Assembly (NCBI RefSeq): GCF_018446385.1
Contig: NC_056001.1
Coordinates: 8,017,600 to 8,081,599 of the forward strand
Source: Zingiber officinale
Lineage: Eukaryota; Streptophyta; Magnoliopsida; Zingiberales; Zingiberaceae
Length of the DNA stretch: 64,000 bases
Reading direction: 5' to 3'
How positions within the stretch are numbered: the first letter of the stretch is position 1; every line of letters begins with the position of its first letter. This document shows positions 1,961-59,395 of this stretch, piece by piece. Both the position numbers and the translations under genes were made by a program. The notes under the pieces are model-generated. The model was not told the origin of the DNA. It worked only from the letters and a program-made list of their open reading frames with translations, and made no database searches.

Positions 1961-2690
1961 CAATTGTATGATGAAGACTACCCTATTTGCTATGTTGTGC
2001 TAACTCTTTATTTCCAAGGTAGATATAATTTTTATTGCCTGAACTAACCTTTTTTTGTAGGGAGAAGGCTGCTGAAGAAAAGGACTCCGAGCGTCCGGAC
2101 TCCAAGGGCCCGGAGCTGGTCTGGGGGCCCGATGCAGGGTGGCCCAGGCGGGCCACATGCTCCTAGGCAATCCGGGCGCCCGAACTTGGTCCAGGCGCTC
2201 GGAACCGAAAAATCATCCACAAGTTGACGTGAAGCGCGTCGATTGGCCGAGCCACGTGATCTAGGCGCTCGGAGGGGTTCCAGGCGCCTAGAATGGACCT
2301 ATTTAAAGGCCTTCGACCCGGAGCTTCAGGACGACAATGACTACAAGTTTTTTTTCTTGCTCGGTGCTCCGAAAAAGCTCCTGCGATGTTGCAACACTCC
2401 ACCGACAACCGGACTTCATCTTTACTTAGTTTTCTTTGTTATCGGTAATTTTATATATAGTTTATGTACTTATCTTGTAACACTTTTTGCGAACTATTAT
2501 ATTGCCCAACGAAAGCACTCGACGAGTGCGGGTCTTGGAGTAGAAGTCGTCGAAGGCTCCGAACTAAGTAAAACCAACTTGTGTTAGCATTGGTTTATCT
2601 CTCTTCCGCTGCGTAACTTAGTTTTAATTCGCTTTCGATTTTGAACGATTGTTATTCACTCCCCCTCTAGTGTTCTTTCCTATCCTACAC
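1961..2690 (+). repeat. Truncated LTR with palindromic words upstream of a TATA-like box
   Basis: This segment has the 3' signature shared by several LTRs in the window (TATTCACTCCCCCTCTAG, then a CA end near 2690). Between 2085 and 2295 it is GC-rich and full of short self-complementary words such as GGGCCC, CCTAGG, GGGCGCCC, CACGTG and AGGCGCCT. A TATA-like CTATTTAAAGGCC follows at 2299-2311. The 5' end is not defined. It has no coding capacity. Confidence 0.55.
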
Positions 2691-3735
2691 ATACGACTCG
2701 GTTGAATAGTTCAGTCGACCAGATCTTTTGGTTGATGTGATGGTCAAAGTCAAGGAGGGGTCAACACTCGAGGTCGGCACGGGCATACAACTTGGTTGAA
2801 TAGTCCAGTTGATCGGATCTCTTATTGAATCGAGTCCCCAAGTCCTCCTGGCTTGACGGAATCATGAGCCGCGCCCTAGTTCGATTCAGATCTGAGCAGC
2901 ACAATCATATGATTTGGTCAAATAGTCCAACCGTTCGACCTCTTGTCTGATCGGATCCTGAGTCCTCCCAGCTCGATACAATCCTAAGCCGAGTCATCTC
3001 GGCTCGAGTAGACTACTCATCCGCTCAGATCCTGAGTCCTCCCAGCTCAATGGAATCCTGAGTTGAGTCCTCTCGGCTCGACTGGACTACTTGCCCGAGC
3101 GAACGCTAGGTCCTCAGAAAGGCCAAGTCCTCAAGGACGACTAATCCTCAAAGTGTCGAGTCCTCAGAATGGTCAACACTCTTTAGCTGACCCGACCCCG
3201 TCTGAGTAAGGACTTCGACCAGACATTGGAGGGGACTCGGTCGTCCTACCAGTAGTAAGAACCCATTACCTTAACGACCTAATATTCCTTTTTGATATCT
3301 TGTATAACTATTGTCAGGGAATCTAGGGGCTATGCTCTGTGTAAGTCATATGACGAAAGCTTCTATCCTGCAAAGCATAGAAATGGTAGGCCTATTTTAG
3401 GAAAATTATCAAAATGTTAGAACAGTCGGTCTTATTTTGATAATACATTAATATTCATGTAAGAGGAAAAGTAATACTATATAAGGGGGTCTGCATCTAC
3501 ATGCGCAGGAATGCTTCTCCATTAGAGCTTACTATTTATCATCCCTGCTCTTCAATTTTTTTTCTTTTACCACTTACGTGACTTGAGCGTCTCAATGTCT
3601 GTGTTGGGGGCCCTCCTCCTCAACCCGATCACTGACATTTTCTTCTCCTAATTCTTATTTATGCTATGAAGGCTCATTCACGACATCAGGGTCCTAGTCT
3701 TCTCATGGTGCATATCAGAGCCACCTAGCTAGTTG
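2691..3735 (+). repeat. Tat-type gypsy LTR, old copy
   Basis: The first half (2735-3180) contains imperfect repeats around the phrase TGAGTCCTCCCAGCTCGAT and GGTCAAAGTCAAGGAGG, the latter also present in the Tat LTR at 44390. The second half (3229-3725) matches 1325-1735. No coding sequence follows, so it is a solo or truncated LTR. Exact ends were not resolved. Confidence 0.55.
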
Positions 3736-15507: not shown

Positions 15508-16353
15508 AGCTCTGAAGCAAGAGCTTCTGGTGCTTCTATTTTTCCCCTGTGGAATTCCACAGAGGACATCTTCGCTATCTTAGTTCTTTTTTCATGAATT
15601 AAGAAACTATAGTAAAAAAAACTTGATGATTGCATGTCTGGTAAAGCGTTGTCTGGTAAAGGGTACATGGGCCATAATTGATTTGGAGAAAACGGGAGGT
15701 GGAACAGTGGGACGAGCAATGGTGCATGGAAGGGAAATGTAATCATTAAACAACAGTGTCAGGTGATTTTACAAAGAGGACTGCTGATTTGCCCCACGGG
15801 CGGGATCAACTGGTTATGACATGGATTCTTGTAGCATGAGTCGAGAGGTCGAGGGTCTGCGGCAGTAAATATGATAACATCAATATCTGTCCGTGTTAAA
15901 TACCTGAGACCACCATGTCATAGCTGGGCCCGTATTCATCGTGATTTACTCCCTCTCATACTTGTGGGGCCGGGTTGAGGGGGCCGCTGGGTTGGCGGTT
16001 CCAACCTTTTTGCAGCGAGAGGACTGCTGATCGGGAGTTCCACTCTTTTTTGTCTATCAATGAAAGTAACAAGAAAGAAAGTAATTTTACTTCCATGTAA
16101 AATATATAAAATGATGAATGTAATGGGAGAGGGAAAAAAAAAAACCATGGGCCATAAAAAGATGGACTGGACTGCGCAGTTCTGGGCACCCTATTTTTCG
16201 CGTCCACTGTGATTTGGCAATACGTTGGTAGCGCTATCTAGCTTTTGGCATCCAATAAAGACCATGGGTGAACAACAAGATGACAACAACAAGAAATGGA
16301 CACGGAACCTTCTGTTATCACTGGAGTTAGAAGCAATAGCCAAAGCAAAAGCA
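15508..16353. other. Upstream region of the subtilase and intergenic DNA
   Basis: This holds the presumed minus-strand promoter of the subtilase (15508 upward). I see no clear TATA box at a standard distance and no coding sequence. Confidence 0.5.
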
Positions 16354-25752: not shown

Positions 25753-27028
25753 TGTTGGATCGAGAAGCGTTAGAGAGGGGGGGTGAATAGCGCTCGTGAC
25801 TATTTCGCGTTTCAGATTTGTAAAACTATCAAGTTAAAGCAGCGGAATAAAGTAAAAGACAACAAACACAGAAAGACACCAGAGATTTACTTGGTTCGGA
25901 TCCTGTGATGACTCATACTCCAAGGCCTGCGATCGTTGATCGCTTCCGGTGGGCAACAACCATAAGCTCGGAAAAAGAGTACAGATTTGTATTACAATAA
26001 GTGCAATAAAGAACTATTATACCGACGACAGAATCAAAATCTCGGAGCTCCGGGTCGTCGGGGGCTTGTAACAGCACTTCAGGGCGTCTTTTGGAGCAAC
26101 ACGTTGTAGTAGAAACACTTAGGAATTGTTGTCTTGACTGCTGCCTCGAGACCCCCTTTTATGCACTACTGGAGGCGCCTCCAACACCATCCAGGGCGCC
26201 TCCAACACGCCGAGTCAGCCGCGTGGATCAGTGCTGAAAAGTTCACCTCTTATCTACTCGAAGGCTCCTCCAAGCAACTCCAAGATGCCTCCAAGCTCTG
26301 GTCCAAGGCGCCTTCAGCTCCGTCTGAGGCACCTCCAAGCCTGTTGCGCAGCCAGCTCACCCTCTGCACCTGAGGCGCCTCCAAACTCCATGGAGGCGCC
26401 TCGGACACTATTCATTCGAGGTGTGACTTGCTCCTTTATTCCTGCAGAATGTGTTAGTCCCAAACACATACCCTGTAAAACAAAGTTAGCACATAGTAGT
26501 CATAGTAAATGAGATATTGACAGTCTTCGGACTGTCCGGGTCTGACTTCGGATTTCCAATCGGAAATCCTAGGTTGATCCGACGCCTACTGTTCCCTCTG
26601 CGGAGAATGCGTCATCACCTACTCCACTCAGGAGATTTATCTGATGTCAGCATGATCCTCCAGATCGACTGGACTTTTGCTTGGCGCTCGATACTTCCGG
26701 ACTTTCTGCTAGACGCTCGCTCCCCGGCCCGTCCAGTCTTCCACCTAGTTCGCGACACCAGGACTTTCCACCTAGGGTTATCACCCCTTAGGACTTTTGC
26801 CTGAAGCCCTCGACCCACCAAGACTTTCCGTATAGGGTTACCATCCCCTATGACCTAGGGTTACCACCCCCTAGGATTTTCCACCTGTCTAACCGCAGCT
26901 AGGACTTTTGCCTAAGTACACTTAGGACTTTTCCTGCAGTGCTCATTCAACATATTAGTAAACAAAACATCTTAACTTTGACATAATCAAAACATAGGTT
27001 CGATCGTCGGATGCTTCCCGCACCAACA
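25753..27028 (-). repeat. Solo LTR, minus orientation
   Basis: It has TGTTGGATCGAG at the left and GCACCAACA at the right, so TG and CA ends. The flanks ATGAG (25748-25752) and GTGAG (27029-27033) are a 5-bp duplication with one change. On the minus strand GCATAAAAGGGGG (26152-26164) is a TATA-like box. Directly upstream of it lies an array of words built on GGAGGCGCCTCC (26170-26402). A second array of hairpin modules ending in GGACTTTT lies at 26750-26935. It is 1276 bp long with no internal domain. Confidence 0.8.
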
Positions 27029-27711
27029 GTGAGGACACGTCCCGATTGAGGGACAATAGGCGTTGGTCTAGTGTAGGTCCATTTTGGATTCCTAAACTGA
27101 GACCTTGACTGGATCTTGGTCTCAGGTGATGGGATCGTTCGTACTCGGCTAGAGAGGGGGGGTGTGAATAGCCGCCCCAAATCGCTCGTTTTTCTTCCTA
27201 CAATTCGTTAGCGCAGCGGAAAAACAAACAAGGAAACGAAAACAAGAAGATCAAACCTCAACGCGTCGATGTAACGAGGTTCGGAGATTAGGGCTCCTAC
27301 TCCTCGGCGTGTCCGTAAGGTGGACGAGTCCAGTCAATCCGTCGGTGGATGAGTCCCCGGAGAACCGGCTAATACAATATACTCCTTGTGGGTGGAGAAA
27401 CCTCGCCACAATATTCTTGCAACAGCAAGAAAGGAATACAACAAGAAATACAAGAAGACAAGAACAATGAATGTAAAAACACAGGTTTTCTTGCCTCCTC
27501 GCCGACTGGATTTCGTTGAAGCAGCAGCTCCTCAGAACACCTACAACAGCAGGATATCCCAGTCGAGAAGCTCACGCGAAGCTTGCGAAGAAGAGCTCAA
27601 CAAAGCTCAAGCACCAGAACAGCAGCTCTGTAGCAGAAGAGAAGAGGAAGAAGTTGTCGCGCAGCAGCAGCCCTCGACCCCTTTATACCTGCGAAGAAGA
27701 CAGCGAAGAAA

Positions 27712-27736
27712 CTAGCCGTTGCGTCGCAACGGCTAG
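27712..27736. promoter_or_regulatory. Perfect 25-bp palindrome next to the LTR TATA box
   Basis: The arms CTAGCCGTTGCG and CGCAACGGCTAG are perfectly complementary over 12 bp around a single T. It lies 23 bp from the TATA box in both LTRs (the other copy is 33247-33271). Its position fits a protein-binding or cruciform site in the U3 promoter, which is inference. Confidence 0.75.
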
Positions 27737-27740
27737 AACC

Positions 27741-28081
27741 CTGATCGGTCTGCAGACCGATCAGCCTTGGCGCATGAAGCTTCTGTTTGTCACCTGAGTA
27801 CGTACTCTGATCGGTCTGTGGACCGATCAGGCCACATCTGGATCGGTCCACAGACCGATCCCAACTCTGGCTGTGCTTCCGCGACATCGTCTCCTGATCG
27901 GTCCCCAGACCGATCAGGACATGGCCTGATCGGTCTGTGGACCGATCAGCCTGCCTTTCTTTTCGCCTCTGTTCGCTTGATGATCGGTCACCGAACAGAG
28001 AGCTTCTGTTCGGTATCTGATCGGTCACCAGACCGATCAGAGCAAACAAGGTATCACTGGATCGGTCTGGTGACCGATCCA
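27741..28081. repeat. Array of GATCGGTC...GACCGATC palindromes in the LTR
   Basis: Seven perfect inverted repeats have arms of 9-10 bp around a 4-base spacer: 27741-27764, 27807-27830, 27840-27861, 27894-27917, 27926-27949, 28017-28040 and 28058-28081. A half unit lies near 27980. The core is GATCGGTC-NNNN-GACCGATC. Outer arm bases switch in pairs between CTG/CAG and TGG/CCA forms. Spacers vary (TGCA, TGTG, CACA, CCCA, ACCA, TGGT). Confidence 0.92.
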
Positions 28082-28279
28082 GAGCTTGGTTTTTGCCCAA
28101 ACCAAGTCCCAAGACTTCCAAACCAATATCCGGTCAACCTTGACCTATTGGTACTTCATCCCTAACATCTGGTCACTCCCTTGACCTGCTAGAACTCCCT
28201 GCCAAGTGTCCGGTCAATCCCTTTGACCTACTTGGACTTTCCAACACCAGAAGTCCGATCATCCCTGATCCATCTGGAT

Positions 28280-28640
28280 TTTCCCTTGCCTGGCTTCACT
28301 CACCAGGACTTTCACCTGGCTCCACTCACCAGGATTTCCACACTGCCTAACATCCCAGTTAGGACTTTCTCACTGCCTGGCTTCACTCACCAGGACTTTC
28401 CCACTGCCTGGCTTCACTCACCAGGACTTTCCACACTGCCTAACATCCCAGTTAGGACTTTCCCTCGTGCCAAGCTCCCTGCTTGGACTTCTCCGTGCCA
28501 AGTCTCCATACTTGGACTTTTCCAAGTCTCCATACTTGGACTTTTCCCGTGCCAAGTCTCCATACTTGGACTTTTCGCGTGCCAAGCTCCCTGCTTGGAC
28601 TTTTCCGTGCCAAGTCTTCATACTTGGACTTTTCCCGAAT
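28280..28640. repeat. Array of about 12 hairpin modules in the LTR
   Basis: Each module of about 28-30 bp has an inverted repeat followed by GGACTTTTCC or a close form. Arms differ between modules but stay complementary: CCTGG/CCAGG, CCTAAC/GTTAGG, CCAAGC/GCTTGG and CCAAGT/ACTTGG. The other LTR has the same array at about 33820-34180. Confidence 0.85.
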
Positions 28641-29364
28641 CAGGTCAACCAGGTCAACCTTGACCTACGGTTGCACCAATAATCTCCCAAACATCTATTC
28701 TTGTCCCACATCAAGAATAGAACTCTCTCACGAGTGTCAAACATCAACATGCAACACAACTAGGTCAACCTTGACCTAAGGTTGCACCGACAATCTTCCC
28801 AAGTCAAACATCAAAATACAACTCGAGTCACGTCAACTCGAGTCGGGTCAACCAGGTCAACCTTGACCTAAGGTTGCACCAACAATCTCCCCCTTTTTGA
28901 TGTTTGACAAAACCATAATCAAGTTAGGTTAACCCGATAACCTAACTTAAGTTTTCAATCATCTTCCAATGTCCAATGTTCTTTCCGTGCCAAGTCTTCA
29001 TACTTGGACTTTTCCCGAATCAGGTCAACCAGGTCAACCTTGACCTACGGTTGCACCAATAATCTCCCAAACATCTATTCTTGTCCCACATCAAGAATAG
29101 AACTCTCTCACGAGTGTCAAACATCAACATGCAACACAACTAGGTCAACCTTGACCTAAGGTTGCACCGACAATCTTCCCAAGTCAAACATCAAAATACA
29201 ACTCGAGTCACGTCAACTCGAGTCGGGTCAACCAGGTCAACCTTGACCTAAGGTTGCACCAACAATCTCCCCCTTTTTGATGTTTGACAAAACCATAATC
29301 AAGTTAGGTTAACCCGATAACCTAACTTAAGTTTTCAATCATCTTCCAATGTCCAATGTTCTTT
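28604..29364. repeat. 380-bp tandem duplication spanning the LTR/internal junction
   Basis: The text from CCGTGCCAAGTCTTCATACT (28606) recurs from 28986 with no difference that I can see. The repeat unit contains the LTR 5' end, the purine-rich tract and about 100 bp of internal sequence. The two borders share TTTCC. The element therefore has two LTR starts (minus orientation) at 28884 and 29264. Confidence 0.9.
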
Positions 29365-29560
29365 CCTTGAACATTCTCTGGACATTCTCCCCTTAGGTTA
29401 ACCCAATAACCTAACTTGGGCTCTCCATAATTCTCCCCTTTTGACACACATCAAAAGAATTCCAATGTTCTTCCTTGAACATTCCTTGACATTCTTTCCT
29501 AGCTTAGGTTAACCCGATAACCTAACTTGGGTTCTCAATCATTCTCCAATGAATACTCTC
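28885..29560. repeat. Hairpins in the 3' internal region of the gag-only Copia
   Basis: An inverted repeat with arms AAGTTAGGTTA and TAACCTAACTT around ACCCGA occurs at about 28921-28950 and, in the duplicated unit, at about 29301-29330. Two near copies lie at about 29392-29420 and 29500-29530. The purine-rich tract (minus strand AAAAAGGGGGAGATT) is at 29265-29279 and again at 28885-28899. Confidence 0.8.
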
Positions 29561-31133: not shown

Positions 31134-32600
31134 CTATGGGGTAGAGAAAATGCTCCTAGGAACCCAATACCTACTTGAGCTCATTGGGTTCACTAAATAT
31201 TCACTAGGGATAACTTCCCTAGCAACCCTCCTAATGACCCTCTTAGGCTTTAAAGCCTTGGCCATTTGGGACTCATCAAGATCAACTCTAGGGGTGACTC
31301 CCCTTGTGACCTTGGTGTTGGTCTTCCTAGCCCTAGGTTTTGTTCCATAATCGAATGGAACATCATGATATGTGGGCTTGACCATTTGGGACTTAGGTTT
31401 GTGACTCAAACCTTTCTTGTCCTTGGACTTTTGACCCTTAGGCCCTAGAGTTGACTTCTCTAAATTTTTAAGGGCCTTTTCTAGGGTATCAAGCCTTGAC
31501 CTCAAGACTTGATTCTCCTTTTCTAATACCTCAATTTTTGATTTATCACTCTTCCTTGAGGTATTCCTAGGCATATGTCTAGTTGATTTAGGGTTTCTAC
31601 CTAGGTTTTTCTTAACCTTAGAAGTGTTAATCCTAGGGTTAGCATTCCTAGTAGTATCCCTATCTAGGCTAACATGTTTAGCTCCTAAGCACATGTATTG
31701 GTTCCTAAAGTTAACATGCTTATCATTATTAACAATTGCAACAAAACTACTAGCATGAGTTTTATTAGAATTGCAATAATGAACCTTAGAGGTTACCTTA
31801 GGGTTTGCCTTAGCTCCCCCTATCGATGTGCATCCCTTGTCCTTGTGAGGTTTCCTCCTCTTCGGACATTGGCTCCTATAGTGTCCCCGTTGCTTGCATT
31901 GAAAGCACACCATGTGCTTCTTGCCTTTGCGTGTTGGGACTCCGGCTTCCTTGACCTTTGGTGCCGGTGGAGTCTTCCTAACTCTCTTTGGACATTTGCT
32001 CTTGTAATGTCCACACTCCCTACACTCAAAGCATATTATATGTAACTTATTTGAAATTGAGATGCTTGAGTTACCTAGGTTTGGGGATGGGTGTGAGCTT
32101 TCTTCTTCAACCCTTCCGGAGGTGGAAACTTCTTCTTCTTGCTCCGAACTTGAACAAGAGGAACTCTCCTCCTCTTCTTCCTTGGATATTGAGTAGCCCT
32201 CAACTTCCAATTCGCTCCCTCCATGATGTGAGCTACTTGGCTCACTAGGCTCCTCTTCATGGCTTGAGGTGGAGCTCTCCTCATGGTACTTGGCCAAGTT
32301 GTTCCACAACTCCTTGGCATTGTTGTATCCTATCTTACACAAAATGTTAGTAGGCAATGAAAATTCAATTATTCTCGTTACCTCTTCGTTGATTTCGGAT
32401 TTGTGAATTTGTTCTCTTGTCCACTCCTTCTTCTCAAGTGGTTTTCCTTCTTCATCCACCGGAGGAGTAAAACCTTCTTGTACACAAAACCAATTCATTA
32501 TGTTAGTCATAAGAAAATACTTCATCCTTACCTTCCAATACGCGAAGTCGCCGCATTCGTAGAAAGGTGGAATGGTGACATCTTCTCCATAGAGATCCAT
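31134..32600 (-). CDS. Copia-type Gag with two zinc knuckles
   Basis: Capsid/nucleocapsid protein of 488 residues from the gag-only element. Residues 1-105 match the DUF4219/UBN2 gag fold of plant Copia elements (PPFYECGDFAYWKVRMKYFL, then NAKELWNNLAKYHE). An acidic Ser/Glu-rich stretch follows (about 106-175). Two CCHC knuckles are visible, CFECRECGHYKSKC and CFQCKQRGHYRSQC (about residues 188-245). A coiled-coil-like segment lies near 355-380 and a basic C terminus follows. The end resembles the stretch just before the protease in autonomous relatives, so pol was deleted right after gag. The frame is intact, so it may be translated and could package the element RNA if a partner provides enzymes. 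It is not a host gene. Confidence 0.88.
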   Translation of the reverse strand: MDLYGEDVTIPPFYECGDFAYWKVRMKYFLMTNIMNWFCVQEGFTPPVDEEGKPLEKKEWTREQIHKSEINEEVTRIIEFSLPTNILCKIGYNNAKELWNNLAKYHEESSTSSHEEEPSEPSSSHHGGSELEVEGYSISKEEEEESSSCSSSEQEEEVSTSGRVEEESSHPSPNLGNSSISISNKLHIICFECRECGHYKSKCPKRVRKTPPAPKVKEAGVPTRKGKKHMVCFQCKQRGHYRSQCPKRRKPHKDKGCTSIGGAKANPKVTSKVHYCNSNKTHASSFVAIVNNDKHVNFRNQYMCLGAKHVSLDRDTTRNANPRINTSKVKKNLGRNPKSTRHMPRNTSRKSDKSKIEVLEKENQVLRSRLDTLEKALKNLEKSTLGPKGQKSKDKKGLSHKPKSQMVKPTYHDVPFDYGTKPRARKTNTKVTRGVTPRVDLDESQMAKALKPKRVIRRVAREVIPSEYLVNPMSSSRYWVPRSIFSTP

Positions 32601-32647
32601 TCTCTAGCTTTGCTCCCACGGGTGTTGATCCGTCGAAGAGCAGCCTC

Positions 32648-32659
32648 GCTCTGATACCA
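32648..32659 (-). other. Primer binding site of the gag-only Copia
   Basis: On the minus strand TGGTATCAGAGC, the exact complement of the 3' end of plant initiator-Met tRNA, lies two bases inside the LTR that ends at 32662. This fixes the element orientation and the LTR edge. Confidence 0.93.
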
Positions 32660-32661
32660 CT

Positions 32662-34425
32662 TGATGAGATCGTTCGTACTCGGCTAGAGAGGGGGGGTGT
32701 GAATAGCCGCCCCAAATCGCTCATTTTTCTTCCTACAATTCGTTAGCGCAGCGGAAAAACAAACAAGGAAACGAAAACAAGAAGATCAAACCTCAACGCG
32801 TCGATGTAACGAGGTTCGGAGATTAGGGCTCCTACTCCTCGGCGTGTCCGTAAGGTGGACGAGTCCAGTCAATCCGTCGGTGGATGAGTCCCCGGAGAAC
32901 CGGCTAATACAATATACTCCTTGTGGGTGGAGAAACCTCGCCACAATATTCTTGCAACAGCAAGAAAGGAATACAACAAGAAATACAAGAAGACAAGAAC
33001 AATGAATGTAAAAACACAGGTTTTCTTGCCTCCTCGCCGACTGGATTTCGTTGAAGCAGCAGCTCCTCAGAACACCTACAACAGCAGGATATCCCAGTCG
33101 AGAAGCTCACGCGAAGCTTGCGAAGAAGAGCTCAACAAAGCTCAAGCACCAGAACAGCAGCTCTGTAGCAGAAGAGAAGAGGAAGAAGTTGTCGCGCAGC
33201 AGCAGCCCTCGACCCCTTTATACCTGCGAAGAAGACAGCGAAGAAACTAGCCGTTGCGTCGCAACGGCTAGAACCCTGATCGGTCTACGGACCGATCAGG
33301 CCCTGTGCTGATCGGTCCCCAGACCGATCGGTCGATCTACGAAGACATTACATGCGTACTACGTCGATGCGTGGACCGATCAGTACCGGATCGGTCCACG
33401 ACCGATCCCAACTCGCCGTGCTTCGCGATCGCCGTCTCGATCGGTCCCCCGATCAGGACATAACTGATCGATGCGTGGACCGATCACCGCTCTTTTCGCC
33501 TCATTGCGTTTGCGATCGGTCACGGACCGATCGATCAACAGAGATTCGGTATCTGATCGGTCACCAGACCGATCAGAGCAAACAAGGTATCACTGGATCG
33601 GTCTGGTGACCGATCCAGAGCTTGGTTTTTGCCCAAACCAAGTCCCAAGACTTCCAAACCAATATCCGGTCAACCTTGACCTATTGGTACTTCATCCCTA
33701 GCATCTGGTCACTCCCTTGACCTGCTAGAACTCCCTGCCAAGTGTCCGGTCAATCCCTTTGACCTACTTGGACTTTCCAACACCAGAAGTCCGATCATCC
33801 CTGATCCATCTGGATTTTCCCTTGCCTGGCTTCACTCACCAGGACTTTCACCTGGCTTCACTCACCAGGATTTCCACACTGCCTAACATCCCAGTTAGGA
33901 CTTTCTCACTGCCTGGCTTCACTCACCAGGACTTTCCCACTGCCTGGCTTCACTCACCAGGACTTTCCCATTGCCTAACATCCCAGTTAGGACTTTCCCT
34001 CGTGCCAAGCTCCCTGCTTGGACTTCTCCGTGCCAAGTCTCCATACTTGGACTTTTCCAGTGCCAAGTCTCCATACTTGGACTTTTCCCGTGCCAAGTCT
34101 CCATACTTGGACTTTTCGCGTGCCAAGCTCCCTGCTTAGACTTTTCCGTGCCAAGTCTTCATACTTGGACTTTTCCCGAATCAGGTCAACCAGGTCAACC
34201 TTGACCTACGGTTGCACCAATAATCTCCCAAACATCTATTCTTGTCCCACATCAAGAATAGAACTCTCTCACGAGTGTCAAACATCAACATGCAACACAA
34301 CTAGGTCAACCTTGACCTAAGGTTGCACCGACAATCTTCCCAAGTCAAACATCAAAATACAACTCGAGTCACGTCAACTCGAGTCGGGTCAACCAGGTCA
34401 ACCTTGACCTAAGGTTGCACCAACA
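32662..34425 (-). repeat. 5' LTR of the gag-only Copia element
   Basis: It is 1764 bp and almost identical to 27127-28884 outside the palindrome array. The 109-codon frames at 27386 and 32921 translate identically. The TATA box TATAAAGG is at about 33217-33224 (minus). In the array (33276-33600) only the first, second and last two units keep clean palindromes. The middle is scrambled relative to the other LTR although the array length differs by only one base. Confidence 0.92.
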
Positions 34426-34430
34426 TCAGG

Positions 34431-35040
34431 GAGACAGAGTCTAATTACTAGTCAATATTATTATGCTAACACTTATTTTGCAGGTTATTATTTGGTTTAT
34501 TCGACTAATACACTTTGTAGGGCAAGAAGAGCACAAAAGCCTCGGGTGAACAATACCCGAGGCGTCTTCTAAGAGATGGAAGACACCTTCAAGCATTGGA
34601 AGGCGCCTTAGCATTGTTCAGAGAAGGCGCATTCGGTGCATGGAAGGCGCCTTTCGCAGGATAAAGTTCAGATTTCCTCAAAGATAAGGGTCAGGCTATT
34701 CAGGATTAGACTTATCATATTGGAGGCACCTTCAAGGCCTTTGAAGGTGCCTTCCATGGTCAATAAAAGGACTGCTCGCCCAAGCCAGGAAACAATTCAC
34801 TCATACGAACATCTACGCTTCTGATTGGACTTTTGAACGCTCTAACTTCCTGCTACAACTCTACTGCAACATTGCTACACTCATTTACCACTAAGAAGCT
34901 GCCCAAACACCGACCTCAAGCCAACCATCTTCGAAAGAGTATTTGGTAAACTTTCATTTGTATACTTAATTATTGTAAAAAGACAAGTGTAGTGTGTTGC
35001 ACTTGTTCCGACTTTCTTTGTACTCCATTCCCTCTTCTGG
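34431..35040 (+). repeat. Right part of the older plus-oriented LTR, with palindromes and TATA-like box
   Basis: Words such as GGAAGGCGCC, CGAGGCGTCTTC and GGCACCTTC...GAAGGTGCC fill 34555-34757. CAATAAAAGGACTGC follows at 34761-34775, in TATA position for plus-strand transcription. The segment continues the pieces at 25380-25752 and 27029-27126. Confidence 0.55.
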
Positions 35041-47587: not shown

Positions 47588-49922
47588 TGTAACGCCCGAA
47601 AAATTCTCAAAATAATTATTAGAAATATCCTAGTATTTTTCTGGAATTTTAGAATTTTTTTACAGAATTTTTAGAGTAGCAGAAGTAGCAAAAATAAATA
47701 GAATCGTAAAATAGCCTACGCGGGAATTGAACCCGAGACCTATTGGGCCCTACGACTTATGGTGAACTCTAGTAACCAAGTGAACCCAGCAGGGCCGTGC
47801 TGAAAGAAAAGGGAATCAATGATATTTATATTTAAGTTGGGTGAATTAACCACTTAATATAAATAGGGAGGTTAAGTGAGGAGTTGTTTTTAACGTAATT
47901 TTCTTTTCTCTCCTCACCCTAGTCACGCCGCCCCCTTCTTTTCTTCCTCACTCGGCGCACCAAGCCCCAAGGGCTAGGGTTCCGTCCCAAAGGCTCCAAG
48001 AGCACCTTCCGGTGATAACTCCGGTACGAGGACGCTCTCCACCACGAGAGGAACACGTAGACGCAAGGAGATCGCCGAAGGGATTTTCTCCACCAGAAAA
48101 CTAGCGACTAGAATCGTAAGAAATCTAGCGCAGGAGGTAAGAAACTCCTCACCTACAGTATAAGTAGCTCTTTCGAGGTTTGGCGCATTAGTTTAGTTGT
48201 ATGCAGAATTTTAGTACGTAGGGTGTGGACTAGTGCACACCATATGTTTGATAAAATGTGTAGCTCAGTTAAATGCCACCATAGACATTTTAATAGCTCA
48301 GCAAATGCAATAGAAGCATTTAAAATAGCTTATCTAGTCTTGCTATAGCTTATATGGGACTACGGTCCAATGGGTGGGCTCCCATAGTCGCCTCTAGGTT
48401 CAGATAACCTAGCTCTGGGTTCAAATAACCTAGAATCAGCAAGATAAATTAATTAGCTTATGATCTAGTATTTTACTTTCAGCAGTGGCACTATACTGGA
48501 CTAGATGTCCATTGGGTTGGGCTCCCATAGTCGTCCTTAGGTTTAGATAACCTAGTAGACCCTACTAGATTCGAAATTTACAACCCCGGGTTTAGTTAGG
48601 GATGTGCGCACAACAAGTACAGTTGTCGGGCCCATCAGCAGCATGATTATGTATTTTCATCTAGTATGATAATAGCTTTCAAATTCACAATCAGTTAGGT
48701 GATTATATTTTAAAATCAGTTCTAGCTCAACTTTAGTTTAGCTCAGTATGTTTCACTTTAGTCTTTGCTTATTGACATTTCAGTTATAGCCATGATCAGT
48801 TTTTGGTTCCTATGTTTTGTATGTTAGAATGCCATGTTTTAGCATTTCAGCACACATTTCAAATATCATGTTTTCAAAGCATAAATTGCATCGTATGCAT
48901 GTTTTGTGAGGTAGATGGTTTCTTACTAAGCGAAAGCTTACAGATACTCTTTTCCTTATACTGCCGATAAAGGTAAAGGAAGGATGGACTAGCGGAGGCT
49001 GGAGGACAATGCGATGAAGATGTGTGTGGAATAAGGAACTTGGAATAAAGATGCTTGGAAACTAGCGAACTTGAAACTTAGCATTTCTAATTCTAGTTAC
49101 ATCTCTACCTTTTAGACTGTTTGAGTAGCATGAATTGTGTAGTATGCATTCAGTTTGATATTGGATAGCACTCCATGAGTAGTGTCATGCCTAGTAGTTT
49201 TATCTCATGTTTATAGAGTTGATGTATGTGATTTAGGCACGAATCAGTGCTGAAATCAGAGCTCAGCTGCGAAATCAGAAACCCCCAATCGATCAGCCGA
49301 TCGATTGGAGGCTTCCCAATCGATCGGTTGATCGATTGGGTAGTTGTTATTCGCAAACAGAAGGTCTCAGGATCGATCAGCCGATCGATTGATTCAGTTC
49401 AATCGAACAGCCGATCGATCGGGCCTGATTCCAGTGAACAGAACCTTGCTGAATCGATCCTCTGATCGATTGGTAAGTCGGGATCGATCAGCCGATCGAC
49501 CCAGAAATTCTTTCGTGCATAGTAGCGTACTGAATCGATCACTGGATCGATCAACAAGTTTGGATTGATCAACTGATCGATCCAAACAAAGTTTCATATA
49601 CAGTAGCCACCTGAATCGATCAGTGGATCGATCATGCCATTCCAATCGATCCACGGATCGATTGGGAGGCCTGATATCAGCTGCAAACCCTTATTTAGAT
49701 TCCTTGACCATAGGGGATGTAATAGATGACATGTATATCTTAGATTACACCCCTTAGCATATGTCTGATAATAAAATTCCGAATTTAGTAGTAGTTAGCA
49801 AAGATTTTAATTGGTACAGCTTTCCGCACCTAGACTTAGTGATGGTCATGGATATAGCTTAGCACAGCATAATGTGACGGTCCGGCCTTGCAGCCTAGTC
49901 AGTAGGAGGGGGGGTCGTTACA
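47588..49922 (+). repeat. 5' LTR of the Tekay element
   Basis: It is 2335 bp with a TATA box TAATATAAATAGGG at 47854-47867 and downstream palindromes at 49286-49672. At 47706-47735 the minus strand reads GGTTCAATTCCCGCG, a good pol III B-box match. A clear plant gene-like leader (CT-rich, 47900-47960) follows the TATA box. Confidence 0.93.
49286..49672. repeat. Array of ATCGATC-NNNN-GATCGAT palindromes in the Tekay LTR
   Basis: About ten units have arms of 7-9 bp around a 4-base spacer, such as CAATCGATC, then GGTT, then GATCGATTG. Other spacers include AGCC, CTCT, AACT, AGTG and CACG. Some units have one mismatched arm. The 3' LTR carries the same array at 56508-56893 with few changes. It lies about 1.4 kb downstream of the TATA box, so it would be in the transcribed leader. 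Confidence 0.9.
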
Positions 49923-50116: not shown

Positions 50117-53100
50117 ATGTCCTCTACGTCTCTAGAAATGGCACGAGGACGCCCAGCTAGAAGGGCACCAGCTACTGAGCCCCAGCAAGAGACAGGCAGT
50201 TCAGTGCCTCCCCCAGACCTTACAGCAGTAGTGGCTCAGTTACAACAGCAACTAGCTGAATAGCAACAAGAGATAACCACCTTAAGGGCTAATCAGCAAA
50301 CCACTCTCACTATCACTCCAGAGCCTAACTTGGCAACTCCAGTAGTGATAGAGGTTCCACCAGTCCAACCTGCAGCACCAGTGGCCCCAGCAGCAGGAAC
50401 ACAGAGAGAAGCCTATCTGATCTAGTGGCAGAAAGTCAAGCCAGAGAATTTCTCAGGCACCAGTGAACCATGGGATGCTCAGGCCTGGTTCAAAACACTG
50501 GAGAGTACGATGGAGCTTCTGGACTGGCCAGAACATGAGAAGGTGAAGTGTGCCTCCTTCTGCCTAGTAGGAGATGCACGCATATGGTGGGAGAGAATTA
50601 GAGCGAACCGCCCAGTGAACCAGATGACTTGGGCTGACTTCGAGAAAGAATTCTTTGAGGAGTTCTTTCACATGCGGGTCACAAACCGTCACTACGACGA
50701 GTTCACTGAATTTCGCCAAGGCAACCTTTCAGTTGAGGAGGCCATGAAGAAATTCAACAGGCTGGCTCGTCTGTGTCCCGAATTAGTCAGCACTGAAAAG
50801 GAAAGGGTCCGACTGATGCTTAAGATGCTGAGGTCGGACATAGCACTGAATGTAGCCAGTGGCGTTCATAGGCTACAAACCACAGAAGAACTAGTAAGTA
50901 GTGCCCTCATCACGGAGCATTACCAGAATAGCATCAAGCAGCAGAAGCAAGTTCTCTCAGAGTCCAAAGGTAAAGGAGGCTCAGGTACTCAGAAACACCA
51001 GGGCCACAGCTCCCACGGCTCTAACTGGAAAGGGAACTCCAGCAACAAACGCAAACCAGGGAGTTACTCAAAAGGAGGACCAGCTAGCAAACAGCCTAGT
51101 TATCCCAAATGTGCTACTTGTGGGAAATTTCACCCTGGAGTTTGTCGTAAGGGCACACGATGATGCTTTGAGTGTGGACAGGAAGGGTATATGACTAAGC
51201 AGTGCCCAAACAAGACTAGTCTTCCTCAACCACAGTCGATTCAGTACGGAGGCCAGCCAGCTCAGTTACATCAGATGCAGGTCGCTTTAGATGACTCACA
51301 TATCAGCCAGGGCAGACTAGAAGCCCCTTCAGCTACGACCAATGCGAGGATCTACTCACTCACCAGAGAGGACGTAGCGAATGCCTCAATAGTTGTTTCA
51401 GGTTAGATTAGTATTTTACAGCAAAGTGCAACTGTCTTATTCGATACTGGGGCAACCCATTCTTATATATCCAGGGCGTTTGCCGAAAAGATAGCGATAC
51501 CTCCAGAGGTACTCAATGGTCAGTTTTTGACAACGCTACCTTCAGGAGAAATTATGGCATCCACGCACTGGCTCAGAGCAGTGCCAGTCAATATAACAGA
51601 CAGAGAACTCTTTTGTGATCTGATAGTGCTAGATATGACTGATTATGATATCATCTTTGGAATGGACTTCCTGATCAGATACGGTGTCTCTATAGAGTGC
51701 CGTAAACAGAAAGTCATATTCCAACCTAAAGCAGAAGTACAGTTCGAGTACATCGGAGAACCAAAGAGAAAGGACAAGAAGTTTCTCTCAGCTCTAAAAG
51801 CACAGAAATTAATGGGTTCAGGATGTACGGGATTCCTAGCACATGTAGTCAATACTAGTCAGGACAAGGACCAAAAGCTAGAAGAGGTCCGAGTTGTATG
51901 TGACTACCCAGCAGTCTTCCCTGAGGAGTTACCAGGCCTAGCACCAGACAGGGAGATTGAATTCGAGATAGAACTCATTCCCGGTACGAATCCTATCTCC
52001 AAAGCGCCTTACCGCATGGCTCCAGCAGAACTGAAGGAACTTCATGAGCAACTACAAGAGCTGCTTGACAAGGGCTTCATACGTCCTAGTCACTCACCAT
52101 GGGGAGCGTCTGTATTATTCGTGAAGAAGAAGGACGAGAGCATGCGCCTGTGCATAGACTACCGGGCACTGAACCAAGTCACCATCAAGAACAGGTATCC
52201 TCTTCCCAGAATAGATGACCTGTTCGATCGGCTAAAGGGAGCAGCAGTGTTCTCTAAGATAGACCTCAGATCAGGTTATCATCAGGTGAAAGTTAAAGAA
52301 GGGGATATACCCAAGACAACATTCAGGACTAGATACGGACACTACGAGTTTATAGTCATGCCCTTTGGCGTGACAAATGCTCCAGCTACTTTCATGGACC
52401 TCATGAACAGAGTATTCAGGGACTACCTAGATAGATTTGTTATTGTGTTTATCGATGATATTCTTATCTATTCAGGAACTCAGGAAGAACACGCAGAGCA
52501 CCTGAGAATAGTATTGCAGACTCTTCAGCAGAACCAGCTGTACGCCAAGTTCATGAAATGTGAATTTTGGTTAAATCAGGTGTCCTTCCTGGGTCACATC
52601 ATCTCAAAGGATGGTATCATGGTAGACCCCAGTAAGATAGAAGCTGTGAGTAATTGGAAAAGACCCAAGAACGCCAGTGAAATCAGAAGCTTTCTGGGAT
52701 TAGCAGATTATTACAGAAAATTTGTAGAGGACTTCTCCAGGATAGCCTCCCCACTGACAGCTCTCACCAGGAAGAACAGAAAATTTCAGTGGACAGAGGA
52801 CTGTGAGAACAGCTTCAGCGAGCTAAAGAGGAGATTGACCAGTGCTCCCATTTTGACTCTACCAGAAAACACAGACGGCTTTGATATTTATAGTGATGCC
52901 TCTAAGTTGGGACTAGGAGCAGTACTGATGCAAGATGGTAAGGTGATCGCCTATGCCTCCAGACAACTCAAGGACTATGAGAGGAACTATCCTACTCATG
53001 ATCTTGAGCTTGCAGCAGTCGTGTTCGCTCTCAAAACTTGGAGACATTACTTGTATGGAGCTCAGTGTAGAGTATATACAGATCATCAGAGCCTGAGGTA

Positions 53101-54775
53101 TTTCTTCACTCAGAAGGATCTGAATATGCGACAGCGCAGATGGCTAGAGTTGGTCAAAGACTACGACATAGACATCCTCTACCACCCAGGAAAAACTAAT
53201 AAGGTAGCAGCTGCACTTAGCAGAAAGTCCAGTGCTACCTTACTATTCCTAGCAGCCATGTCACCGACCCTACACAAGGAGATCACGGATTTCGATCTTG
53301 AACTTATAGTGGGACAACTCTCTACTATGACGTTAGAATCCACCTTGCTTGGTGACATCCAGACAGCTCAGGAACAGGATCCTGAAATTCAGAAGATCAA
53401 GCAAGGGATAGCAGAATCAGAAAGTGGAGAGTTCAGAATGGCTGATAATGGGGCAGTATATTTCGGTGACAGACTATGTGTTCCAGATCAGGAGGAACTA
53501 CGAAGAAAGATTTTAGATGAGGCTCACAGGACTCCCTATGCGATGCATCCTGGCTCTACCAAGATGTACCAGGACTTGAAGAGATGTTTTTGGTGGCCTG
53601 GGATGAAAAGAGACATCACTAGATATGTTAGTACCTGTCTGATCTGCTAGAGGGTCAAGGCAGAACACCAGAAACCAGGAGGAGCTCTGCAGCTTATTCA
53701 GATTTCAAAATGGAAGTGGGAAGACATTTCCATGGACTTCATAGTGGGACTACCCAGAACCACGAATGATTTTGACACCATCTGGGTAATAGTCGACAGA
53801 TTGACTAAATCAGCCCACTTCTTAGCTATCAGGATATCCTATTCTATGGATTAGCTAGCTCAGTTGTATCTCAAGGAGATCGTTAGATTACATGGAGTCC
53901 CACGAACCATTATTTCAGACAGAGATAGTAGGTTCACGTCACACTTGTGGGAGTGTGTACAGTCAGCATTGGGCACTAAGTTAAAATTTAGCACAACTTT
54001 CCATCCTCAAACAGATGGTCAGACGGAGCGAGTAAATCAGGTACTCGAAGATATGCTCATAGCTTATGCCCTAGACTTCAAGGGAAGTTGGTGCAAATAT
54101 CTGAGTTTAGTAGAATTTGCATACAACAATAGCTATCAGGTCACCATCGGCATGGCACCTTACGAGGCTCTCTATGGGCGGAGGTGTAGATCACCAATCT
54201 GCTGGTATGAGAGTGGTGAACAGAAAGAACTAGAACTTCAGACAGATCTAGTAGCAGATACCACAGCAGCTATACAGCAGATCCGCCAGAGGATAGAGAC
54301 AACTCAGAGCCGCCAGAAAAGCTATGCTGATACACGACGCAGACCTTTAGAGTTTTCAGTTGGGGATACAGTGCTCCTCAGAGTGGCTCCCATGAAGGGA
54401 GTAATGCGTTTTGGGAAGAAGGGCAAATTAAGTCCCAGATACGTGGGACCATACCTTATCAGTAGAAGAGTTGGCAAGGTAGCATATGAGCTAGAGCTAC
54501 CCCAGGAGATGTCAGCTATCCATAATGTATTTCATGTCTCTATGCTGAAGAACCATATTCCAGATGCCACCCAGGTGATTGAGCCCCAGTCGGTACAAGT
54601 CCGCGAAGACCTCAGCTATGACAGTCGGCCTATTTAGATAATAGACCGAGCAGTTAAGAAATTGCGGAATAAGGAAGTACCATTAGTAAAAGTTATTTGG
54701 AAAAATCACACAACAGAAGAGGCAACTTGTGAGACAAAAGTCAGTATGAGACAAAAGTACCCAGAGTTATTCTAA
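50117..54775 (+). pseudogene. Tekay gag-pol, one frame broken only by nonsense codons
   Basis: A single frame of 1553 codons runs from ATG at 50117 to TAA at 54773 with no frameshift. Domains in order: gag (residues about 130-270), a zinc knuckle near 350 (CFECGQEGYMTKQC, with Tyr in the His position), protease [12 protein letters not shown] near 440, reverse transcriptase with [12 protein letters not shown] near 775, RNase H near 920-1030, integrase zinc region and core (about 1130-1340), and a chromodomain-like end near 1500-1552. Seven in-frame stops interrupt it: TAG at 50261, 50423, 51404, 53648, 53852 and 54635, and TGA at 51161. All fit C-to-T change from CAG or CGA codons. The reverse transcriptase and RNase H stretch (51407-53647) is still open. 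Confidence 0.93.
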
Positions 54776-54809: not shown

Positions 54810-54810
54810 T

Positions 54811-57143
54811 TGTAACGCCCGAAAAATTCTCAAAATAATTATTAGAAATATCCTAGTATTTTTCTGAAATTGTAGGATATTTTTACAGAATTTTTAGAGT
54901 AGCAGAAGTAGTAAAAATAAATAGAATCGTAAAATAGCCTACACGGGAATTGAACCCGAGACCTATTGGGCCCTACGACTTATGGTGAACTCTAGTAACC
55001 AAGTGAACTCAGCAAGGCCGTGCTAAAAGAAAAGGGAATCAATGATATTTATATTTAAGTTGGGTGAATTAACCACTTAATATAAATAGGGAGGTTAAGT
55101 GAGAAGTTGTTTTTAATGCAATTTTCTTTCCTCTCCTCACCCTAGTCACGTCGCCCCCTTCTTTTCTTCCTCACTCGGCGCACCAAGCCCCAAGGGCTAG
55201 GGTTCCATCCCAAAGGCTCCAAGAGCACCTTCCGGCGATAACTCCGGTACGAGGACGCTCTCCATCACGAGAGGAACACGTAGACACAAGGAGATCGCCG
55301 AAGGGATTTTCTCCACCAGAAAACTAGCGACTAGAATCGTAAGAAATCTAGCGCAGGAGGTAAGAAACTACTCACCTGCAGTATAAGTAGCTCTTTCGAG
55401 GTTTTACGCATTAGTTTAGTTGTATGCAGAATTTTAGTACGTAGGGTGTGGACTAGTGCATACCATATGTTTGATAAAATGTGTAGCTCAGTTAAATGCC
55501 ATCATAGGCATTTTAATAGCTCAGCAAATTCAATAGAAGCATTTAAAATAGCTTATCTAGTCTTGATATAGCTTATATGGGACTACGGTCCAATGGGTGG
55601 GCTCTCATAGTCGCCTCTAGGTTCAGATAACCTAGCTCTGGGTTCAAATAACCTAGAATCAGCAAGATAAATTAATTAGCTTATGATCTAGTATTTTACT
55701 TTCAGCAGTGGCACTATACTGGACTAGATGTCCATTGGGTTGGGCTTCCATAGTCGTCCTTAGGTTTAGATAACCTAGTAGACCCTACTAGATTCGGAAT
55801 TTACAACCCCGGGTTTAGTTAGTGATGTGCGCACAGCAAGTACAGTTGTCGGGCCCATCAGCAGCATGATTTTATATTTTCATCTAGTATGATAATAGCT
55901 TTTAAATTCACAATCAGTTAGGTGATTATATTTTAAAATCAGTTCTAGCTCAACTTTAGTTTAGCTCAGTATGTTTCACTTTAGTCTTTGCTTATTGACA
56001 TTTCAGTTATAGCCATGATCAGTTTTTGGTTCCTATGTTTTGTATGTTAGAATGCAATGTTTTAGCATTTCAGCACACGTTTCAAATATCATGTTTTCAA
56101 AGCATAAATTACATCGTATGCATGTTTTGTGAGGTAGATGTTTCTTACTAAGCGAAAGCTTACATATACTCTTTTCCTTATACTGCAGATAAAGGTAAAG
56201 GAAGGATGGACTAGCGGAGGCTGGAGGACAATGCGATGAAGATGTGTGTGGAATAAGGAACTTGGAATAAAGATGCTTGGAAACTAGCGAACTTGAAACT
56301 TAGCATTTCTAATTTTAGTTACTTCTCTACCTTTTAGACTGTTTAAGTAGTATGAATTGTGTAGTATGCATTCAGTTTGATATTGGATAGCACTCCATGA
56401 GTAATGTCATGCCTAGTAGTTTTATCTCATGCTTATAGAGTTGATGTATGTGATTTAGGCACGAATCAGTGCTGAAATCAGAGCTCAGCTGCGAAATCAG
56501 AAACCCCCAATCGATCAGCCGATCGATTGGAGGCTTCCCAATCGATCGGTTGATCAATTGGGTAGCTGTTATTCGCAAACAGAAGGTCTCAGGATCGATC
56601 AGCCGATCGATTGATTCAGTTCAATCGAACAGCCGATCGATCGGGCTTGATTCCAGTGAACAGAACCTTGCTGAATCGATCCTCTGATCGATTGGTAAGT
56701 CGGGATCGATCAGCCGATCGACCCAGAAATTCTTTCGTGCATAGTAGCGTGCTGAATCGATCACTGGATCGATCAACAAGTTTGGATCGATCAACTGATC
56801 GATCCAAACAAAGTTTCATATACAGTAGCCACCTGAATCGATCAGTGGATCGATCATGCCATTCCAATCGATCCACGGATCGATTGGGAGGCCTGATATC
56901 AGTTGCAAACCCCTATTTAGATTCCTTGACCATAGGGGATGTAATAGATGACATGTATATTTTAAATTACACCCCTTAGCATATGTCTGATAATAAAATT
57001 CCGAATTTAGTAGCAGTTAGCAAAGATTTTAATTGGTACAGCTTTCCGCACCTAGACTTAGTGATGGTCATGGATATAGCTTAGCACAGCATAATGTGAC
57101 GGTCCGGCCTCGCAGCCTAGTCAGTAGGAGGCGGGTCGTTACA
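54811..57143 (+). repeat. 3' LTR of the Tekay element
   Basis: It is 2333 bp and aligns end to end with 47588-49922. Scattered single-base changes are mostly transitions. The palindrome array at 56508-56893 is preserved. Confidence 0.94.
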
Positions 57144-58396
57144 CGCCACCTACCAGAGGCTCATGAACAAGGTATTCCAGAGGCAGATCAACCGTAATAT
57201 AGAGGTATATGTCGACGATATATTAATAAAATCTCCAAGAGCTATTGATCTTTGCACAGACATCAAAGAGACCTGCCAAACTCTGAGAGCTTATGGAATA
57301 AAGTTGAACCCGAATAAATGCATGTTCGGCGCCAAGAGCAATCGATTACTGGGATACATCATCATCGAGCGGGGGATGAGGCCAATCCAAGCAAGGTCAA
57401 GGCTCTACAAGATATGTCACCACCATGTAACTTGAAGGAAGCTCAACGGCTAACCGAGCACATTACCGTTCTATCCAAATTCATATCTAAATCATCCGAC
57501 TGGAGCCTACCGTTCTTCAAGGTGCTGCGTCAGGTGACAAAATTGTAATGGGATGTGGAGTGCGACTGGGCTTTTGAAGAGCTTAAAGATTATCTCAATT
57601 CCTTTCCTATATTAGCTGAGTCGAGCGCATGAGAGTCGATCTGGATCTATCTGTCATCCACCGAGAATGCGATCGGCTCGGCATTAGTTAAGAAAAATGG
57701 GCAAAAGCAACAACCTGTGTATTTTTTAAGTCATATATTGAAAGGCGTCGAGTCCCGCTACACTAGTCTGGAAAAGTTAGCTTACACTTTGGTACTAGCC
57801 GCTCAGAGACTCCGCCCATACTTCCTCTCCCATCCAATCATCGTAATGACCAACAATACCTTGGGTAGAGTCCTCCTTAACCCAGAAGCATCCGATTGGC
57901 TAATCAAGTGGACAACTAAGCTAAGTGAGTTCAACATCCAATACCAGCCCCGAACGACGATAAAAGCTCAAGCCTTGGCTGACTTCGTCACAGAAATCTA
58001 GAGCGGTGAGTTAGAAGTCACTTGGAGAATATATGTGGATGACTCTTCCACCCGACAAGGCAACGAAATTGGTATCCTGCTCATTTCCCTAAGGGAAGAC
58101 TGAATGTAACTTTTCCTTCCGTTGGATTATCGCACCACCAACAATGAGGTCGAGTATGAAGCCTTGATAACCGACTTACAAGCAGCGAGGCATGTTGGAT
58201 CCACAAAGATCCTCATTCACTCAGATTCCCAGTTTCCCGTCCAGCAGCTAGTGGGGCCATTCGAAATTATCAACCCTTGACTCAAGTTATATGCATAAGC
58301 ATTCGAGAAGTTAAAAATAAATTTTCAAGAAGTCACTGTACAGAAGATTCTTCGATCGGACAATCAAGCAACAGATGAACTTGCTAAGTTAGTTAG
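57144..58396 (+). pseudogene. Tat reverse transcriptase 3' half, RNase H and additional RNase H
   Basis: The reading continues the sequence cut at 47587 (TYQRLMNKVFQ). The active site VYVDDILIKS lies near 57205. A first RNase H with YFLSHILKGVESRYTSLEKL is at 57715-58000. A second RNase H region follows at about 58025-58280 with RIYVDDSSTRQGNEIG, TNNEVEYEAL and HSDSQFPVQQL. Two RNase H domains in a row define the Tat lineage. Stops and frame changes are present. The sequence is cut at 58396 by a solo LTR and resumes with a Ser-Leu codon pair at 59399. Confidence 0.85.
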
Positions 58397-59395
58397 TGTT
58401 GGAGGATCGGTGGCCGCTAGAGGGGGGTGAATAGCGTCTCACCCAAATCGATGGCTTCCTACGTATTTGTTAGTGCGCAAGCGGAATAATACAATACAAA
58501 TTACGAATACGAAAGCTAAAGATAAAGAAAAGAACAAGCAAACCAATGCACGTCGATGTAACGTGGTTCGGAGATGATGCTCCTACTCCACGGTTATCCG
58601 TAAGGTGGACGATCCCTTAATCCGTCGGTGGATTAGTCCCCGGAAACTCCGGCTAGCTCAAACCGCTCCTTGTGGGTGGAGAAACCTCACCACAACTTCA
58701 ATCAAGAACACTTGGACACAAGAGATCCTTGAGCACTTTGGTGACTACTAATTAGGCTTTAACCAAGTCTAATTTCGTCACCTTGGCCGGCCATACCAAG
58801 CTCCTTCTTATAGAGCTTGGAACAAATCAGAACCTGATTTGCCCGTTACCAGTCGACTGGTCCTTGCACCAGTCGACTGGTGCCAGCCCAACGACTATCT
58901 CAACGGCTCTGCTACAGTGCATCAGTCGACTGATCCATCATCAGTCGACTGCTACAGTGCGCTACAGTAACTGCTACAGTGCCGCTGCAGTAAAACCCTA
59001 AAACTAAGATTTTACTCCGAGTACAATCTCTCATGCACTCGTACCCTCACGACTCATTTGACTCTTCTTTGCAGCCTTGACCTTTTGCCTTCAAGCCTAC
59101 TTCCTTTGGCTCTCGTCCCTCGGATGCATCCAAGCCCGTGACTTGTCCCCAATGCCATCCTTCGCGTATGCCTTGAAGTCGCTTCCCTCGGCCATTGTCC
59201 TTGCTGCCTTATCCACGGTCCCTCGGATGCTCCATCCTTCACCGGACCCGAAGCCGTCAACCTGAGTCATATGTGTCACTTACAGTCCTGCACAACTCAA
59301 GTACACATATCAAATAACAAGGGTAAACCTAACTTAAACTCTTTGCCCAAACACCAAAACACATGGTCCCACGGACCATTGGGATTGCTCCAACA
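58397..59395 (-). repeat. Solo LTR inside the Tat element
   Basis: It has TGTTGGAGGATC at the left and TGCTCCAACA at the right. The flanks GTTAG (58392-58396) and ATTAG (59396-59400) are a 5-bp duplication with one change. On the minus strand CTCTATAAGAAGG (58805-58817) is TATA-like. Upstream of it are four words around CAGTCGACTG (58851-58962), in ACC/GGT and ATC/GAT flank forms. It is 999 bp with no coding sequence. Confidence 0.85.

Follow-up and report, generated by a model that had tools for sequence, protein, structure and literature searches.

Long terminal repeats (LTRs) of retrotransposons in ginger (Zingiber officinale) carry arrays of short two-armed palindromic words, hereafter dyads, upstream of TATA-like boxes. 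These arrays were found in a 64,000-nucleotide stretch of contig NC_056001.1 (positions 8,017,600 to 8,081,599 of the forward strand; hereafter the window), in LTRs of Sireviruses, which belong to Ty1/copia, and in the LTR pair of a Ty3 element. The reading that we favor, with a rough probability of 0.55, is that they are promoter-proximal dyad-word arrays of the type known as repeated-motif (RM) boxes that would serve as cis-regulatory modules for dimeric DNA-binding factors, a role suggested by the sequence. This ties the pattern to the RM boxes of Sireviruses, which have been described but not explained, and places the same kind of array beyond Sireviruses, in a Ty3 family. The Sirevirus arrays of ginger belong to a known design, and the additions to the literature searched are the Ty3 arrays and the replacement of words throughout an array on related LTRs. 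The abundance of the sites, a word class common to superfamilies, and the word replacement make the question of what binds RM boxes testable in ginger.

The dyad excess was measured as the number of bases within perfect dyads and compared with dinucleotide shuffles (500 for arrays A to E and G, 60 for region F). For array C, on the minus strand at 27741..28081 and tested as 27712-28081, 200 dyad bases were counted against a shuffled mean of 22.8, and for array G, on the plus strand at 49285..49665 and tested as 49260-49680, 172 against 35.5; no shuffle was as high in either case, nor for array E (58851..58962, minus strand; 50 against 8.0), which is made of CAGTCGACTG words. Array D (34555..34757, plus strand), with GAAGGCGCC-type words, had 44 dyad bases against 9.6, and array B (26170..26402, minus strand), with words around GGAGGCGCCTCC, had 44 against 13.1; 3 and 4 of the 500 shuffles, respectively, were as high. 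An AGGC core occurs four times in array B, which none of 500 shuffles matched, and arrays B and E contain four perfect 8-base cores each. The first-pass annotation of the window had described palindromic arrays in five LTR types, and this holds for B, C, D, and E, which stand far above the shuffles, but only weakly for A (2085..2295, plus strand), whose GGCGCC-type words are weak and degenerate: 17 of 500 shuffles reached its 40 dyad bases (mean of 14.8), and no core occurs twice. Arrays G had gone unmentioned. A weaker sixth case had been proposed at 60643-63177 (region F), where total dyad bases indeed exceed all 60 shuffles (350 against a mean of 184), but no word clearly recurs: the commonest core, GGCC, occurs four times, a borderline count that 3 of 60 shuffles reach.

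A TATA-like box adjoins each of arrays A to E, as had been noted; these boxes were identified from sequence reading alone. Array A is followed by TATTTAAA at 2300 and array D by a CAATAAAAGG box at 34761, and minus-strand TATA-like boxes lie near 26157 for array B, at 27682..27690 for array C, and near 58808 for array E. Array G has eight dyads of the type AATCGATC-N4-GATCGATT at no more than 2 mismatches, and a TATTTA box follows it near 49692.

Array C, composed of seven exact full dyads GATCGGTC-N4-GACCGATC and one half word, lies within the 3' LTR (27127..28884, minus strand) of a gag-only element at 27127-34425, whose 5' LTR is at 32662..34425 on the same strand. The only open reading frame (ORF) of at least 250 amino acids (aa) between these LTRs, the threshold used in our survey of LTR-bounded elements, is a gag-like frame of 489 aa with a CCHC zinc knuckle (31134..32603, minus strand). 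At 28894 the Sirevirus polypurine tract (PPT) AGGGGGAG is followed by AT and the start of the LTR, which reads TGTTGG. Two copies of the PPT precede the 3' LTR, the second within a tandem duplication, and the PPT/LTR junction contains an inverted repeat with a 16-base arm abutting the PPT and at least 12 complementary bases about 79 bases further, inside the LTR. A poly-C signal is found near the LTR end, in a string slightly unlike the pattern that matches arrays B and E and loci L029 and L037. After the 5' LTR, at 32648, is TGGTATCAGAGC, which we take to be the primer-binding site (PBS) string; it is also present in the Ty3 element, and therefore the PBS alone does not discriminate a Sirevirus. 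With positive results in four landmark tests, the C element is, by its sequence landmarks, a non-autonomous Sirevirus. Its target duplication reads by eye as five bases, CCTGA. Among 23 copies of this family, scrambled ones included, exact full dyads number 9 in L008, 8 in L049 and L059, and 3-7 in the other 20, degenerate words falling outside this count. The space that separates array C from its TATA box holds a distinct hairpin-like inverted repeat, CTAGCCGTTGCGTCGCAACGGCTAG, at 27712-27736; of 15 loci with arrays of GATCGGTC words, 5 have an arm of this repeat.

The LTRs bearing arrays B (25753..27028) and E (58397..59395), both on the minus strand and with ends read by eye, are probably solo LTRs, the former between near-matching 5-base flanks, CTCAC/CTCAT. 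They have poly-C signals at 25787 and 58431. The start of the B-type LTR is joined to the Sirevirus PPT at 7,882 + 7,844 places in the genome, with 0 for the control (at most 2 mismatches), and the start of the array-E LTR, TGTTGGAGCAATCCC, is the same as that found after the Sirevirus PPT in L034. Both LTRs thereby carry those Sirevirus landmarks that a solo LTR permits. The AGGGGGAG-AT-TG junction was also found in L027, L029, L034, and L037; L029 and L037 each have four AGGGGGAGA PPT sites within about 300 bp, together with the poly-C signal, and the gag of L029 matched Retrotran_gag_2 below the cut-off (E 0.0048). In L034 (2175-2308) an array of CAGTCGACTG words lies upstream of the PPT copies and outside the LTR, within the linker that precedes the 3' LTR.

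Array G belongs to an element of another superfamily. Its 5' LTR (47588..49922) and 3' LTR (54811..57143), both on the plus strand, pair with 97.4% identity, and the second LTR carries its own copy of the array with nine dyads (56507..56887, plus strand). The coding region between them (50426..54637, plus strand) comprises three separate open frames with Retrotrans_gag/Ty3_capsid, RVP_2, RVT_1, RNase H, Integrase_H2C2, and SH3_Tf2-1 domains. This order of gag, protease, reverse transcriptase, RNase H, and integrase, with Ty3 domains, assigns the element to Ty3/gypsy, and it is not a Sirevirus, because AGGGGGAG is absent from its PPT/3' LTR junction. Its word spacings, mostly 30-31 and 51-53, are similar to those of the main word class.

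Counts made over the whole Zingiber officinale assembly (3.09 Gb, 211 contigs), with the same pattern in reversed reading as the control, showed how abundant these words are; the accessible text on the published haplotype-resolved ginger assembly describes a Nanopore assembly of 3.1 Gb with 11 chromosome pairs (PMC8342452). The pattern GATCGGTC-N(0-24)-GACCGATC occurs at 206,198 places against 4 for the control, with 5 of 100 places, among the matches listed, being long spans across neighboring words. For CCAATCGATC-N4-GATCGATTGG there are 40,525 places against 0, for ACCAGTCGACTGGT 22,812 against 5, for TGGAGGCGCCTCCA 7,660 against 2, and for the 24-mer CTGATCGGTCTGTGGACCGATCAG 4,930 + 4,801 against 0. 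When 20 arbitrary 10-kb stretches and the window were scanned for at least three copies of one perfect palindromic 8-mer inside 600 bp, 24 clusters were found against 4 in mirror-palindrome controls, and 12 against 1 for 10-mers; the 24 include satellites or tandem parts of LTRs, which are not arrays of this kind. Clusters of the word types dealt with here were present in 6 of the 20 stretches (L027, L029, L033, L034, L036, and L037).

It had been stated that no description of this design was known, which was wrong because Bousios et al. 2010 reported RM boxes upstream of the TATA box; Sirevirus RM boxes have thus been in print since 2010. According to the accessible part of that paper (PMC2829016), palindromic RM boxes occur in 13 Sireviruses, are element-specific with at least 8 copies per element, and are mostly clustered in the upper LTR half shortly upstream of a conserved TATA box; a CGG-CCG core is present in all Sireviruses but one, and Sireviruses with an envelope gene have extra copies in the linker. 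The boxes are described there as forming CpG islands and, within the set of Ty1/copia elements compared, termed specific to Sireviruses; no common binding factor was found, as far as that part of the text goes (PMC2829016). The CGG-CCG core of Osr8 CGGTCAGACCG is also that of ginger GATCGGTC-N4-GACCGATC, Tnd-1 ACAATCGATTGT resembles the ginger AATCGATC words, and linker copies have their counterpart in L034. In contrast to what that text gives for RM boxes, ginger also has GTCGAC and GGCGCC words, its main class has mostly 4-base variable centers, and its arrays are found in a Ty3 element and in terminal-inverted-repeat elements as well. Many ginger copies also have fewer than 8 exact words, with only 3 of 23 C-family copies reaching 8, and their status as CpG islands is uneven: the CpG observed/expected ratio in the array compared with the rest of the LTR was 0.91 vs 0.69 for C and 1.43 vs 0.64 for G, but 0.58 vs 0.85 for B and 0.81 vs 0.83 for E. 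In maize Sireviruses, palindrome clusters in the LTR cis-region have been linked to small RNAs as hotspots (Bousios 2016 as cited in the accessible parts of PMC10760457 and PMC5311732), and maize Helitrons carry the same palindrome (PMC10760457). A second type of element carries the palindromes in both plants, Helitrons in maize and elements with inverted arms in ginger, whereas a Ty3 family with strong arrays is a difference of ginger from the maize case as given in those texts. No account of ginger or Ty3 arrays was found in the open-access literature searched.

The anatomy of the words is what would be expected of sites for dimers, as had been proposed from their placement near promoters: judged from the sequence, the arms are kept and the centers, mostly of 4 bases, vary. 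In the main word class, 8-base arms are extended by symmetric outer pairs, and of 95 dyads, 74 have a center of 4 bases and the others one of 3 or 5, with 38 different 4-base centers (contig C1, among the matches listed). The outer pairs were analyzed in 131 non-identical dyads with 4-base centers; once overlapping and scrambled loci were dropped, 205 dyads had been found, 142 of them non-identical. Pairs 1, 2, and 3 were complementary in 120, 107, and 70 dyads, where 76.6, 76.5, and 45.0 would be expected for independent sides, and there was little or no excess past the third pair (42 against 34.8 for the fourth). Part of this excess may come from descent from two word types. In the Ty3 family and in one Sirevirus group, the arms are conserved against drifting centers and spacers, but a second group lacks such a contrast; the spectrum of arm mismatches, 27 in all, was too small for use. 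Center-to-center distances of words cluster at 32, 41, and 53, close to multiples of 10.5. Helical phasing gave 185 of 2000 in a jitter test that kept ties, and R was 0.42 at a period of 10.5 for 114 distinct spacers but 0.06 (p 0.88) with one value per length, while the best period without the 32 class was 6.2. Helical phasing of the words is therefore only suggestive.

The words differ by family within the same layout, as first described, and symmetry is kept where they differ: the related LTRs of L029 and L037 have symmetric words of the form GGATCGATC-N4-GATCGATCC, and the GGCGCC class has the symmetric versions GGAGGCGCCTCC in array B and AAGGCGCCTT in array D. The LTRs themselves, which had been called unrelated, share sequence. 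A and B have 71 bp in common at 77% identity, although A did not exceed the best of 200 shuffles in the local-alignment test with B or D; B and D align with a score of 41 against a shuffled maximum of 27; and C and E have 178 aligned bases at 81% identity. With these links for A-B, B-D, and C-E, the five arrays do not represent five unrelated LTRs. In C and E the sequence is shared on the transcript side, and the word classes are different. Likewise, the identity between L029 and the C element is 87% across a segment of 185 bp, from the last array word into the distal U3, and their words differ throughout. By eye, C-family copies differ by deletions that start and end in words (e.g. L052, L053, and L054 vs L043). 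Insertion of single words as mini-elements was also considered and not upheld, since inspection by eye, which was not systematic, revealed deletions between words and no clean insertion with a target duplication.

Word arrays are not confined to LTRs. In 3 of 15 loci (L001, L016, and L018) arrays of GATCGGTC words lie between inverted arms that are 82-88% alike, and these arrays are therefore within elements of another type; by eye, L004 and L014 also have such arrays inside terminal-inverted-repeat elements. In L016 the surrounding sequence is (AT)n. A CTCTCACAGAGAG stretch is common to L016 and the LTR of L006, and L008 has the same stretch except for the last base, which suggests that the word arrays of L016 were captured from an LTR. 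For this reason, the arrays of L001, L016, and L018 were not counted as separate origins. It is possible, though we put it forward tentatively, that Ty1 Sireviruses, a Ty3 family, and small terminal-inverted-repeat elements share one dyad class, RATCGRTC-N4-GAYCGATY (two versions with more than 200,000 exact places), in which versions are replaced array-wide, and that the words form a fast-changing lock-and-key code with one family of dimeric factors. If true, such a code would span a sizable fraction of this genome's retrotransposon promoters and be usable across element types.

If the arrays are cis-regulatory modules, each two-armed word would be bound by a homodimeric DNA-binding factor of the host or, less likely, one encoded by the element, and several sites in a row would allow factors to be recruited cooperatively to the promoter, where they would activate transcription and/or hold silencing off. 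A shift in binding specificity would need a change in both arms of every word, and within this proposal the words would therefore be family-specific yet symmetric. Recombination or template switching between identical words would alter the number of copies and might carry new versions of a word along the array, and small-RNA output from the hairpin-forming sequence would be a side product put to use by hosts. Repeated, sometimes symmetric cis elements that are bound by host factors upstream of the LTR TATA box are a feature of Tnt1 (box I/BII) and ONSEN (heat-shock elements), which differ from the ginger arrays in being single copia families with few copies of the elements and known host factors. 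The symmetry of Tnt1 box I is mentioned in the accessible part of PMC2829016. The best evidence against an interpretation of the arrays as pure binding sites is that the spacers contain extra inverted repeats and symmetry. Stems of at least 6 were present in 10 of 60 long spacers, where 2.42 were expected and none of 500 shuffles was as high; three of these ten hold diverged words and two are near-identical. In addition, 31 distinct spacers of 12 bases were mildly symmetric in their inner parts (40 of 124 pairs against 28.2 expected, with 7 of 1000 shuffles as high).

Alternatively, the arrays, which as part of U3 would be at the 3' end of the RNA, could form hairpins that serve in packaging, in reverse transcription or in the function of the 3' end, and be cut into small RNAs, which we regard as unlikely. 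Predicted RNA folds were more stable than those of shuffles in 25 of 25 arrays (z -2.4 to -19.1), but every DNA palindrome also folds as RNA. Of the 14 C-family arrays, 12 had a raw folding energy in favor of the sense strand, as had 7 of the 11 other arrays; however, this advantage is within composition for the 14 C-family arrays (mean difference of -10.2 vs -12.8 kcal/mol in shuffles), the antisense strand was more stable in 3 of 3 Ty3 arrays, and the folding-energy strand test for G-U preference found no preference for the transcribed strand among the 25 arrays. Words without centers, such as the CAGTCGACTG and GGCGCC types, would also make poor single hairpins, although the excess of small RNAs on palindrome clusters of maize Sireviruses (PMC10760457, citing Bousios 2016) would be in line with an RNA-level role. 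Somewhat less credible still is a mutational drive without function, in which palindromes in LTRs would arise and spread by slippage from word to word and by template switching at quasi-palindromes, as a drive toward symmetry alone would not hold one word sequence array-wide while centers and spacers diverge, nor would it account for the position of arrays next to TATA-like boxes in LTRs of both Ty1 and Ty3 type. It is quite improbable that the arrays are targets of VANC-type anti-silencing, in which a sequence-specific protein would bind them, strip silencing marks and co-evolve with the words, for although dense, family-specific short motifs in non-coding transposon DNA that change together are known as VANC21 and VANC6 targets in Arabidopsis VANDAL elements (Hosaka et al. 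2017, PMC5735166), these are DNA transposons in which VANC21 motifs lie in one orientation within tandem repeats, with palindromes unmentioned in the accessible text, and no extra gene was found among ORFs of at least 250 aa between the LTRs of the C or Ty3 element, no search with a VANC model having been made.

Some array copies have a scrambled appearance, namely the one in the 5' LTR of the C element (33260-33600 of the window) and those in L046, L047, L048, L060, and parts of L027 (6181-6500). In these copies CAG or CTG is changed to CG and CAGT to CGAT, with numerous small indels, and the flanks are clean. The probable cause is an error of Nanopore base-calling or of the consensus where CHG sites are methylated, and the scrambling in the 5' LTR of the C element is probably such a base-calling error. 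Elsewhere in the window, a subtilase-like gene on the minus strand (13186-15579) has an open frame of 797 aa with Peptidase_S8 and fn3_6 domains, and a tandem repeat with a 37-base unit occupies the window end (63295-64000).

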